Assembly (NCBI GenBank): GCA_019113645.1
Contig: DXGZ01000143.1
Coordinates: 1 to 57,454 of the forward strand
Source: Candidatus Mediterraneibacter vanvlietii
Lineage (GTDB): Bacteria > Bacillota > Clostridia > Lachnospirales > Lachnospiraceae
Length of the DNA: 57,454 nt
Direction: 5' to 3'
The translations under genes and the position numbers were made by a program. Shown here in pieces: positions 30,495 to 55,024 of this stretch (positions are counted from its first letter, which is position 1; each line of letters begins with the position of its first letter). The notes beneath the pieces are model-generated. The model saw nothing but the letters and a program-made list of their open reading frames with translations, made no database searches and had not been told where the DNA came from.

Positions 30495-31820
30495 ATGCGC
30501 GAGAATCCATTGAAAAAAATTGTGGAACTTCAGAAAAAAGGGGAAAATGTCGGCATTTATTCTGTGTGCAGCGCCAACGGGTACGTGATCGAGGCGGCGC
30601 TGAAAAGAGGGCTGTCAGACGGTTCCTGCGTACTGATTGAAAGCACGGCGAACCAGTGCGACCAGAACGGCGGTTACACCGGGATGACGCCTGCGGATTT
30701 CCGTCAGTTTGTGCTGGAGACTGCTGAAAGAAACGGGTTTGACAAAGAGCGGATTTTCCTCGGCGGAGATCATCTGGGACCGCTAACATTTGCACATAAA
30801 GACGAGGCGGAAGCAATGGCAGATGCAGAGGAGCTGATCCGCTGCTACGTGGGCGCGGGATTTACGAAGATCCATATTGATACGAGCATGAAAGTGAACA
30901 GCGATGATCCGGATACACGGCTGTCGGATGAAGTGATTGCAGGGAGAGGCGCCCGTCTTGCACGTGTTGCCGAGGAGACGTATCAGCAGCTGCTTGAGAG
31001 AGAGCCCGATGCGGTTCCTCCGGTCTATATTATCGGAAGTGAAGTGCCGATTCCGGGAGGCGCGGTCGGAAGCGAAGATAATGGCGTCCAGGTTACGAAA
31101 GTGGAAGACTTCCGCAATACGGTGGAGGCATTCAAAGAGGCTTTCCGGGAAGCAGGACTTGAAAATGATGTCTGGGAGCGTGTCATCGGCGTGGTGGTAC
31201 AGCCCGGCGTGGAAGAAAAAGACAGTGGCTGCACGGAGTATGACAGAGAAAAAGCAAAAGAGCTTATGGCATCGATCGACGAATACCCGGGACTTGTTTT
31301 CGAAGGACATTCCACGGATTATCAGACAAAGATCAAGCTGCGCGAACTGATTGAAGACGGTGTGGGCATCCTGAAAGTAGGTCCGGGGCTTACATTTGCC
31401 ATGAGAGAAGGGCTTTTCGCACTTGAAAATATTGAAAGAGAACTGCTGAACGGCACGGATGCCGAACTGAGCAGGTTCTCGGAAGTCCTTGACGAGGAAA
31501 TGTGCAGAGATGACTGTTACTGGAGAAAACATTATCAGGGAACAGAGGCAGAACTTCGTTTTAAAAGAAAATATTCCTTCTCTGACCGCTGCAGATACTA
31601 TATGCCGGTGCCGGAGGTAGAGAAAGCTATTGGACGTCTGATTGACAACCTGCGCACGCACGGGATTCCGCTGAACCTTCTGAGCCAGTTCATGCCGATT
31701 CAGTACACAAAAGTGCGGGAAGGCGAACTGGAGAATGATCCGGTTGAGCTGATTGAGGACCGGATTATTAACACGATTGACGAGTATCTCTATGCGACGC
31801 ATCAGAAGGAGCTGATGTAA
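30495..31820 (+). CDS. kbaZ: Tagatose-bisphosphate aldolase non-catalytic subunit (KbaZ/GatZ-like)
   Basis: A 441-residue protein of the KbaZ/GatZ family, which stabilises and activates the KbaY/GatY catalytic subunit. Family blocks are VGIYSVCSANGYVIEAAL near the start, LIESTANQCDQNGGYTGMTP, FLGGDHLGPLTFAHKD, FTKIHIDTSMK, YIIGSEVPIPGGA, FEGHSTDYQT and LKVGPGLTFAMREGLF. The length suits the family. AAAGGAGATAAATT precedes the ATG. Its divergent partner kbaY completes the pathway, although kbaY and kbaZ are co-directional in E. coli. Confidence 0.9.
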   Translation: MRENPLKKIVELQKKGENVGIYSVCSANGYVIEAALKRGLSDGSCVLIESTANQCDQNGGYTGMTPADFRQFVLETAERNGFDKERIFLGGDHLGPLTFAHKDEAEAMADAEELIRCYVGAGFTKIHIDTSMKVNSDDPDTRLSDEVIAGRGARLARVAEETYQQLLEREPDAVPPVYIIGSEVPIPGGAVGSEDNGVQVTKVEDFRNTVEAFKEAFREAGLENDVWERVIGVVVQPGVEEKDSGCTEYDREKAKELMASIDEYPGLVFEGHSTDYQTKIKLRELIEDGVGILKVGPGLTFAMREGLFALENIERELLNGTDAELSRFSEVLDEEMCRDDCYWRKHYQGTEAELRFKRKYSFSDRCRYYMPVPEVEKAIGRLIDNLRTHGIPLNLLSQFMPIQYTKVREGELENDPVELIEDRIINTIDEYLYATHQKELM

Positions 31821-31897
31821 CATGCAGAGTGGGCTGATATAACAGAAAGAGTTGTCTGACATAACAGGCGGATCAGGCTGAAGAGTTACAGTGCATG

Positions 31898-31968
31898 AGG
31901 ATTGTGAGTATATCACAGACAGGACACATGATGTGTGGTAACCTGGGATATACTCATAATCCTTTTTT
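31898..31968 (+). terminator. Long-stem terminator after kbaZ
   Basis: A 17-bp stem (31898-31914 with 31947-31963, one G-U pair) encloses a 32-nt loop that itself contains ACACAT-G-ATGTGT. It is followed by TTTTT, 77 bp past the kbaZ stop. Confidence 0.8.
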
Positions 31969-32016
31969 GGTGGCAGTTCCTGATCCGCAGGAAACTGTGA
32001 TCCCGTATGTGTTTTG

Positions 32017-32179
32017 GTAACAGTTCAGCCATGGGACTGTTCGTGAGAGAAAATCATGCTCGCATGATTTTTCGATCGAGCGGTTCCATGGACTGAGCGC
32101 CTGTATATGAGGGAAACAGCGGCGCAGCCGCAGTAAGCACGCCAGTGCGGTTTTCCGAATGGCGCGGCTGAACTGTTAC
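32017..32179. mobile_element. 163-bp MITE-like element with 8-bp target duplication
   Basis: The ends are perfect 14-bp inverted repeats, GTAACAGTTCAGCC (32017-32030) and GGCTGAACTGTTAC (32166-32179). They are flanked by the exact direct repeat GTGTTTTG at 32009-32016 and 32180-32187, the hallmark of transposition. No protein is encoded. Inside are several hairpins: AAATCATGC/GCATGATTT (32051-32070), nested in an imperfect CCATGG-ended stem, then GCGGC/GCCGC. Copies A, B and C elsewhere in the window share its ends and the GGAAAACCG core. An 8-bp duplication fits several insertion-sequence families, so the mobilising transposase is unknown. Confidence 0.75.
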
Positions 32180-32385
32180 GTGTTTTGGAATCTTGCACAC
32201 ATTTCAGGTGGCGGTTCCGGCGGGGGATATGCTATACTAAGCCGGAATACAGGATATGCCGGCTGCATAAGACAAAAAGGACAGAAAAAGGAAAACGAAA
32301 AGTCCGGGAACGGAGAATAAAAAGGAAATCCAAAAAGGACAGAAAACAGGCAGCAGAGGGTGCTGCCGGATAAAAGAAGGAGAAC

Positions 32386-33816
32386 ATGGTTATGGGATTC
32401 ACGATTGAGACGGGAATATCAGCGTTGACAGTGTTTGTACAGGGGCTCCTCAGCTTCTTCTCACCCTGTGTACTGCCGCTTGTACCGCTGTATCTGGGGT
32501 ATCTGGCGGGAGGACTGAATATACAGCCGGGGCAAGGTACTGCCGGGGGCGCAGGGGCTGCCGGGAGTGCGGAGAATGATGGCGGAGAAGGAGAAAAAGA
32601 GTGCGGCTTGGCCGGGAAAAAGAGATGGAGCCGGGACAGTGTGCGGCTGTTCATCCGGGTGCTGTGCTTTACGGCAGGGATCGGAGGCGCGTTCTTTGTG
32701 CTGGGACTTGGCGCATCAGCCCTGGGAACTTTCTTCCAGGAGCAGAGAAGACTGTTTGCTGGAATCGGTGGTATCCTTGTGATGCTGTTTGGTCTGTATC
32801 AGCTGGGTGTGTTCGGCAGTTCCAGAATACTGGGCGAGGAGCATCGCATCCCTCTGCATCTGGATAAACTGACCATGTCCCCGGTGACTGCATTTGTCAT
32901 GGGATTTGCGTTCAGCTTTGCGTGGACGCCCTGTGTGGGACCGGCGCTGACCAGTGTGCTGCTCATGGCGGGAAGCGCGGATTCCAGCGTAAAGGGCTTC
33001 TTCCTGATCGGAGTCTATACGCTTGGATTCATCCTGCCGTTTCTGGCAGCAGGGATCTTTACCGCGAAATTATTGGGTCTGTTCAAGAAGCATATGAAAG
33101 TGGTAAAATACACGGTGAAGGCGGGCGGCGTCCTTATGATCCTGATGGGCCTTCTCATGTATACGGGAAAGATGAACGATATCACAGGATATCTGTCCAC
33201 AAATATGCAGGCGTATGTAGATGACAGCGCAGAGGGGACGGATACTGCAGGAGATTCGGATGTGTCAGAGGGTTCGGATGTATCAGAGGATGCGGGAACA
33301 TCGGCGGCTTCCGGAGCATCGGATGACAGTGCGTCGGAAGATGGCGCATCGGAAGACGAGTCTGTCCGGGCTTATGAGTTTGAGCTGACAGACCAGTACG
33401 GCAATGTCCATACGCTGGATCAGTATAAGGGGAAAGTGATATTCCTGAATTTCTGGGCTACATGGTGCGGACCATGCAGGAACGAGATGCCGGAGATCCA
33501 GAAGCTGTATGAAGAATACGCGGCTCAGGGGGATGACGCAGATGTTGTGATACTCGGCGCGGCGGCTCCGGATCTGGGGAATGAAGGCTCGAAAGAGAGC
33601 ATAATCTCGTTTATGGAAGAAAACGGTTATACGTATCCTGTGCTTCTGGATGAGAATGTGGAGATGTTCAGCTGGTATCAGATATCCGCTTTTCCGACCA
33701 CATTTATGATTGACAGGGACGGAAATGTCTACGGGTATGTTACAGGACAGCTGACAGAGGATATTATGCGAAGTATCATAGATCAGACGCTCAGCGGGGA
33801 GAGTACAGGAGAGTAA
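32386..33816 (+). CDS. CcdA-TlpA fusion: DsbD-like reductant transporter with thioredoxin domain
   Basis: A 476-residue fusion. Residues about 10-270 are a CcdA/DsbD transmembrane domain with about six helices and two redox-Cys sites, SFFSPCVLPLVPLYLGYLAG and FAWTPCVGPALTSVL; a Gly/Ala/Glu-rich insert of about 40 residues sits after the first helix. A low-complexity Asp/Ser/Glu linker (about 280-325) leads to a TlpA-type thioredoxin domain with WCGPC (residues about 360-364). It would carry electrons from cytoplasmic thioredoxin to extracellular thiols, for example in cytochrome or protein-disulfide maturation. ATG at 32386 or 32392 (better spacing from AAGGAG). Confidence 0.88.
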   Translation: MVMGFTIETGISALTVFVQGLLSFFSPCVLPLVPLYLGYLAGGLNIQPGQGTAGGAGAAGSAENDGGEGEKECGLAGKKRWSRDSVRLFIRVLCFTAGIGGAFFVLGLGASALGTFFQEQRRLFAGIGGILVMLFGLYQLGVFGSSRILGEEHRIPLHLDKLTMSPVTAFVMGFAFSFAWTPCVGPALTSVLLMAGSADSSVKGFFLIGVYTLGFILPFLAAGIFTAKLLGLFKKHMKVVKYTVKAGGVLMILMGLLMYTGKMNDITGYLSTNMQAYVDDSAEGTDTAGDSDVSEGSDVSEDAGTSAASGASDDSASEDGASEDESVRAYEFELTDQYGNVHTLDQYKGKVIFLNFWATWCGPCRNEMPEIQKLYEEYAAQGDDADVVILGAAAPDLGNEGSKESIISFMEENGYTYPVLLDENVEMFSWYQISAFPTTFMIDRDGNVYGYVTGQLTEDIMRSIIDQTLSGESTGE

Positions 33817-54973: not shown

Positions 54974-54990
54974 GCGGAGCGGCATTTCGC

Positions 54991-55024
54991 AACAGTTCAG
55001 CTGCGCCATGGCTGAACTGTTATT
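54991..55024 (+). repeat. Short palindromic repeat (copy C), probable hemW terminator
   Basis: AACAGTTCAGC (54991-55001) is inverted perfectly as GCTGAACTGTT (55011-55021) around TGCGCCATG and followed by ATTTTATTT. It is the shortest relative of the 163-bp element, consisting of little more than its two ends, and sits 17 bp past hemW. Confidence 0.7.

Follow-up and report, generated by a model that had tools for sequence, protein, structure and literature searches.

Several families of small mobile repeats have been described in Bacteria that resemble the element reported here. QMITE2 of Coxiella burnetii is described as a repeat of 150-190 bp, present in about 50 copies, with target duplications of 7-11 bp and a stable predicted RNA fold (PMC5896051). 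The same account gives a full and a small form, a location in intergenic DNA or at 3' ends, and a role as target of the insertion sequence IS1111 (PMC5896051), while the terminal inverted repeats (TIRs) measure 23-29 bp according to a figure legend (PMC10969869). The pneumococcal BOX, RUP and SPRITE sequences are likewise small interspersed repeats. The TIRs of BOX and RUP are described as pairing together in the predicted RNA fold and as making target duplications, and expression of BOX has been shown in multiple cases (PMC3049150). A further group comprises the ERIC, Correia/NEMIS, CIR and YPAL repeats, which are small, non-coding and have folded transcripts. ERIC and Correia are reported to be able to change mRNA stability, and CIR RNAs to adopt a two-armed fold that is phylogenetically conserved (PMC2229807, PMC10969869). 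In these descriptions of small mobile repeats, selection on the fold has so far been argued mainly from predicted structures.

The locus described here lies in a 57,454-nucleotide stretch of Candidatus Mediterraneibacter vanvlietii DNA (the window). The element has a length of 163 bp (32017-32179) between two copies of GTGTTTTG, and spans 32009-32187 when the duplication is included. Its TIRs are perfect over 14 bp (32017-32030 versus 32166-32179), which agrees with what a sequence-only reading of this DNA had noticed about the end repeats and the duplicated flanks. The copy in the window has 54% G+C, and its parts, together with a short derivative elsewhere in the window, are the following.

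32009..32016, no strand: target site duplication, left copy, GTGTTTTG (sequence read)
32017..32030, + strand: left TIR GTAACAGTTCAGCC, with bases 1-12 as the 5' side of the closing stem (sequence, fold, alignment)
32030..32090, + strand: left arm, a long hairpin with a stem that is variable in sequence and has many compensatory changes, and with a well-conserved tip, CATGCTYGCATG (fold, alignment)
32051..32070, + strand: tip of the left arm, the hairpin AAATCATGC/GCATGATTT that the sequence-only reading had named and that is present at this position (sequence)
32097..32165, + strand: right arm, in which a stem GCGCC/GGCGC is followed by an internal loop, a stem and two hairpins (fold, alignment)
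32166..32179, - strand: right TIR, the exact reverse complement of GTAACAGTTCAGCC, with 32168-32179 as the 3' side of the closing stem (sequence, fold, alignment)
32180..32187, no strand: target site duplication, right copy, GTGTTTTG (sequence read)
54989..55023, no strand: short derivative of the element family, a 35-bp hairpin consisting of the two ends with almost nothing between them (14-mer search; flanks agree at 5/8 bases)

Mean departures from the consensus amount to 6-10% in the right arm versus 10-14% in the left arm, and the 35-bp derivative is below the detection level of the covariance model for the family. The interior had been described as encoding no protein, and in the window's list of open reading frames (ORFs) none of 80 aa or more overlaps the element, 163 bp being too short to contain one; seven ORFs of 29-57 aa do overlap it. 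The element is situated between a GatZ/KbaZ-like gene (30495-31820, + strand) and a DsbD/redoxin-type gene (32386-33816, + strand). At 31895-31968, 3' of the GatZ/KbaZ-like gene, an inverted repeat followed by CCTTTTTTGG appears terminator-like by eye, and is absent from the consensus-scan list.

Dispersal, target duplication and empty sites

With a probability of about 0.9, the element is a MITE copy, MITEs being short transposons that lack a transposase of their own. It displays the features of bacterial MITEs, namely inverted ends, a duplication of fixed length, a short, non-coding and dispersed form, and empty sites that contain a single target. The 14-bp end recurs in many dispersed copies, both in the same genome and in other Lachnospiraceae, where the sequence-only reading had suggested looking for it. 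With at most one mismatch, the 14-mer GTAACAGTTCAGCC occurs 70 times in its own genome versus once for a reversed control. BLAST matches to the element in this genome number 46, with 40 of the 98 first-look candidates scored; 21 of the copies were aligned as full-length, and most of these are 86-95% identical. The element was matched in 47 of 58 Mediterraneibacter-like genomes, its own included. At the level of the family, a covariance model derived from 66 genus copies detects the repeat (E <= 0.001) in at least 48 of 299 genomes (one per genus, own included), a count that is a lower bound, as no more than nine candidates were scored per genome and the filters were strict. The core pattern is found in 13 named stretches, nine of which are labelled Mediterraneibacter and one Merdiplasma, with three named as Lachnospiraceae only. 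Regarding placement, 31 of the 32 copies with enough flank share at most 60 bp with any ORF longer than 330 nt.

Two unusual arrangements were observed among the copies. A diverged copy (L054:1496-1656, on G000:C111) immediately precedes an ORF with, by eye, a likeness to ribosomal protein L17, and may be inside a transcribed operon. Furthermore, head-to-tail tandem arrays occur in two genomes, with four copies in L239 (G069:C3:77376-78020) and three in L240 (G265:C56:8991-9473); the period is about 160 bp, and neighbouring units abut or have a few bases in common, no 8-bp duplication being present at their junctions.

Target duplication was assessed in 87 full-length copies with flanks, obtained from 99 loci through a BLAST step in which the match had to come within 12 bases of the end, a selection that favours intact inner stems. 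An exact 8-bp duplication is present in 10 of these 87 copies versus 0.06 expected from pairing left flanks with the right flanks of other copies. Perfect repeats of 5, 6, 7, 9 and 10 bp were counted 2, 1, 1, 0 and 0 times in the same copies (expected: 0.47, 0.26, 0.08, 0.02 and 0). Removal of shared flanks leaves 66 independent copies, eight of which have an exact 8-bp duplication and 18 of which agree at six or more of the eight bases. Other copies with 8-bp duplications of their own, which had been set beforehand as a test of mobility, have thus been found. In 48 of the 66 independent copies, fewer than six of the eight flank bases agree and no clear duplication is now present; we read this as decay, yet it concerns most of the set. 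The nine copies in G288, a genome of another genus, include seven that are identical and six with exact 8-bp duplications, a 9-bp repeat being seen by eye in one copy, while in G341 the duplication is exact in four of seven copies and agrees at 7/8 in the other three.

Shortened forms of the element are also flanked by duplications. Internally deleted forms (36 and 87 bp) with exact duplications account for 4 of the 16 pairs listed, and among the short forms of G288 and G341 the duplication is exact in three of four. Such forms may have moved as such or may have lost their interior after insertion; a route of post-insertion deletion does exist, since two G002 insertions, which occupy orthologous sites, have lost internal sequence. 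In the orientation of the element, the 66 independent genus copies are rich in T over the 8 bases on the left (51 to 11), and a T-rich left flank is also seen in genus copies whose right flank no longer agrees. No T bias of the left flank is present in the 16 copies of G288 and G341 (9 to 6).

The hairpin form and the intergenic placement would also suit an element of the REP/RAYT or IS200/IS605 type, moved by a Y1 transposase. However, to our knowledge such elements leave no target duplication, and the exact 8-bp duplications in many copies contradict this assignment, which is therefore extremely improbable.

In a search for empty sites, the joined flanks of 12 copies were compared with 58 genomes; four insertions were aligned, of which two could be read. 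An insertion on G000:C79 is absent from G033, which has a single ATTTTTTTA, while the T-run target is present twice at the filled site. The G055/G036 insertion is absent from G037, where a single GATGTGAG is found, although the bases that follow it on the right are diverged. One of the two readable targets is therefore a T-run. Six further genomes are without the G055/G036 insertion and have no recognisable target, and the remaining two aligned insertions are too diverged to read. The single target copy that had been anticipated at empty loci is thereby seen at two other insertions; for the insertion in the window itself, the element is absent at all 29 of the relatives' loci around the downstream gene, and no base-exact empty site was obtained there, as the intergenic DNA fails to align.

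Ends shared with a putative longer element

In the mechanism that we propose, the MITE ends would be recognised in trans by a transposase, encoded by a longer element that has these 14-bp ends as well. This transposase, which may be of the DDE type, would cut the target with an 8-bp stagger and insert the MITE, and the target would thereby be duplicated. In G288, GTAACAGTTCAGCCTTTT is located at 13 contig ends, 48-55 bases from the break, and these ends fall into two types of seven and six. In the type with six ends, five have an 8-bp flank that is exactly complementary to the flank at one end of the other type, while other pairings reach at most 5/8 and the sixth end, a T-run, agrees at 7/8 with two candidates. 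A longer multi-copy element that shares these ends and duplicates 8 bp of its target would produce such a pattern in a short-read assembly, and we take the repeat that breaks the G288 contigs to be the putative autonomous element. No contig with the body of this longer repeat was found, and no transposase flanked by the 14-bp ends was recovered in any search made, IS66 being the transposase family searched. The earlier proposal of a MITE moved by a transposase elsewhere in the genome stands as far as the MITE is concerned, on the evidence of its copies, duplications and empty sites. As to its other half, the searches made in the own genome yielded neither a transposase nor an insertion sequence with these ends, and the nearest evidence comes from another genus, where a putative longer repeat with the same ends breaks the contigs of G288.

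IS66-type insertion sequences have ends that start with GTAA and an 8-bp duplication, and thereby share the first four end bases and the duplication length with the element. One IS66 copy, on G000:C70, differs from the element in its ends, which read GTAAGCGCTTAA by eye. In addition, none of the IS66 loci examined (three in the own genome, 19 across 26 other genomes, and several of them cut by contig ends) has an inward GTAACAGTTCAGCC pair with up to three mismatches per end. IS66 was the obvious candidate, and is a possible mover of the element that these loci leave unsupported.

A number of other candidates for the longer element were considered and rejected. Two inward end pairs in the own genome, 2.15 kb and 8.2 kb apart, enclose a P-type ATPase-like ORF (by eye) and a run of other genes, respectively. 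An end pair of 1.86 kb in G341 contains a 613-aa ORF that is RqcH-like by eye, and a pair of 1.2 kb in G086 contains regulator-like and SEC-C-like ORFs, again by eye. On a G131 contig with a similar end, no transposase was recognised by eye among the ORFs of at least 100 aa.

Neither the element, nor one G288 end, nor one G333 end has a match in plasmids. The two G288 ends joined have no match in phages, and in 295 relatives of G288 they match only G288 itself, together with short partial matches in six genomes. In phages, this G333 end has weak partial matches in five unannotated faecal 'bacteriophage' records, three of which were read and judged to be another repeat. The right half of the element is present in two faecal 'bacteriophage' records, one of which has it as a head-to-tail tandem. 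In viral contigs, the 48-base core pattern is absent, and the 18-base end pattern occurs in two stretches, one of which falls within a long ORF and was considered a chance match. For the bare 14-mer, matches were listed in at least 120 viral stretches, most of them probably due to chance. Among the matches listed, five viral stretches have an end pair with flank agreement at 7 or 8 of 8 bases (L369:2671-2808, L431:662-741, L370:4302-4406, L378:1621-1725 and L291:7607-7810). They have the same 14-bp ends (at most five mismatches in all) and, where read among the stretches other than L431, interiors that differ from that of the element, and none of the four that were run against the covariance model matches it. 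By eye, L369 lies between phage terminase-like and portal-like ORFs. Because L369 and L431 have exact 8-bp duplications, the 14-bp ends may be shared by two or more MITE families. Two faecal 'bacteriophage' records, L437 and L439 (MT839789 and MT836459), have a different sequence in common, which starts near GTAACTGTTC and CCCTCACAGTTACGCGCAAAAATCC and seems to represent a separate repeat family of gut bacteria.

Covariation of the fold and the level at which it may act

When folded as RNA, the + strand of the element forms a closed three-way junction of -81.3 kcal/mol (z = -8.2), and none of 200 shuffles is as stable. The - strand reaches -66.0 kcal/mol (z = -5.7), and the element folded as single-stranded DNA has z = -6.35. 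In the genus alignment of 66 copies, 95.0% of the cells are paired and double changes are present in 28 of the 60 pairs, values that none of 500 shuffles reaches, and slid controls are lower on every measure. A wider alignment was made from 32 model matches including two antisense rows, and 25 of its 30 true rows are from outside the genus set or are diverged copies. Without the antisense rows, its 29 distinct rows are paired in 94.4% of the cells and have double changes in 45 of the 60 pairs (best of 300 shuffles: 32), although this alignment was fitted to the covariance model and leans towards it. The version of 32 rows, with the two antisense rows, is paired in 94.2% of the cells, with double changes in 48 of 60 pairs and in all eight helices, and is also above its shuffles. 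The other genera alone (21 distinct rows) have 95.1% of the cells paired and double changes in 42 of 60 pairs. Many columns of the loop strands TATGAG and CGAAT are invariant or nearly so, and by eye A-U, U-A, two G-A and one G-C pair could form between these strands. The suggestion in the sequence-only reading that the multi-hairpin body is a structured RNA is borne out as regards a conserved structure. We conclude that the fold is under selection.

Complementarity may also be maintained by mutation. Quasi-palindrome correction is a known mutational process, and template switching in a recent palindromic ancestor could restore pairing without selection, with the fold as a by-product; the similarity of most full-length copies in the own genome would agree with such a history. 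However, covariation extends to other genera, and the fold is branched with invariant loop columns. Moreover, in 11 orthologous loci pooled, the element changes less than its flanks, with 41 differences in 1800 sites versus 77 in 1317 for the 60-base flanks, which may include coding DNA, and with the element more conserved than the flanks in only 7 of the 11 loci. A by-product of this kind is considered very unlikely.

If the fold is selected, it may act in RNA or in DNA. In the mechanism proposed here, the transcript of a neighbouring gene would run through the element, and the RNA of the + strand would fold into one closed domain that is kept by selection. Cells with G-U exceed those with A-C, which favours the + strand: the counts in the genus set are 168 to 33 at inner pairs and 185 to 72 overall, and those at inner pairs of the wider set, antisense rows included, are 51 to 23. 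This comparison used a structure drawn from the + strand, and a sign test by pair gives 22 to 13 for the inner pairs (p = 0.09) and 22 to 19 overall (p = 0.38). The orientation relative to neighbouring genes, which could be determined for 32 of the 66 copies, is mixed (opposite in 14, the same in 7, divergent in 7 and convergent in 4), and a fixed cis-acting RNA is therefore not favoured. That the fold acts in RNA read from the + strand is put forward tentatively, at somewhat less than an even chance.

The same mixed orientation would be accommodated if the fold were kept at the DNA level, as a hairpin or cruciform for the transposase or for replication, and not in RNA. The element folds well as single-stranded DNA, and in some copies the end pairs change together. 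On the other hand, G-U cells exceed A-C cells, though not significantly by pair, and as RNA the + strand folds better than the - strand. Forms without arms have apparently been inserted too, although these could be post-insertion deletions, as for the two G002 copies. We regard action in DNA as rather unlikely, and between the two levels RNA as somewhat more likely.

A different relation between RNA and mobility would exist if a functional structured RNA, either a gene of its own or a regulator, had become mobile, its fold serving the host or the element in trans. The inverted ends would then primarily be the closing stem. Double changes that reach every one of the eight helices in the alignment with antisense rows (and 45 of 60 pairs once those rows are removed), the invariant unpaired columns and the tandem arrays of G069 and G265 are consistent with such an origin. 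So is the pattern in 19 copies with flank agreement of 0-2/8, in which the departure from the consensus is 37% at the outer five bases and 1.3% at positions 7-12, although this contrast is weak because the copy selection favoured intact inner stems. In Rfam 15, however, no model matches the window at gathering, and at E <= 10 only four microRNA models do, far below their gathering scores. A consensus scan of 31780-32400 found no promoter-like site, and the short forms without arms have exact duplications as well. An RNA gene or regulator that became mobile is thus a possible but not a likely source of the repeat. A more specific version, in which a structured RNA turned into a transposable unit, would have the fold needed for an RNA function (protection, processing or activity in trans) while the closing stem doubles as the transposase-binding ends. 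We consider this version doubtful; if true, one sequence would be selected both as a DNA end and as an RNA stem.

Comparison with described repeat families

As judged from the available descriptions of known families, the repeat is a new family of MITE with an unusually conserved RNA-like body, and its outstanding features are the depth of the covariation and the spread across a bacterial family. Among open-access papers, no description of the repeat was noticed, and none was found for its end sequence. A survey of human microbiomes reports 3161 candidate structured RNAs, of which 250 are palindromic (PMC8040213), and the repeat may be among these palindromic candidates. For annotators, the covariance model covers a repeat that is absent from Rfam. 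As the family combines a recent burst with decayed copies, empty sites and divergence, its fold can be tested by covariation, and the question why small mobile repeats keep an RNA-like fold becomes directly testable.

Compared by description, QMITE2 and the element are alike in size, duplication, predicted fold, full and small forms, copy number and placement. They occur in unrelated bacteria, and QMITE2 has TIRs of 23-29 bp instead of 14 bp and is a target of IS1111 (PMC5896051, PMC10969869). BOX and RUP share with the element the form of a small interspersed repeat, paired TIRs and target duplications, but reside in Streptococcus; BOX is modular, and its expression is reported in multiple cases (PMC3049150). 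Most of the repeats grouped with ERIC, Correia, CIR and YPAL are described as A+T-rich and as having TA at the ends (PMC2229807, PMC10969869), whereas the element has ends that start with GTAAC, an 8-bp duplication and a G+C content slightly above one half. Taken together, and with none of them claimed as a homologue, QMITE2, BOX/RUP and ERIC/CIR/Correia are, as described, the nearest relatives of the repeat in form.
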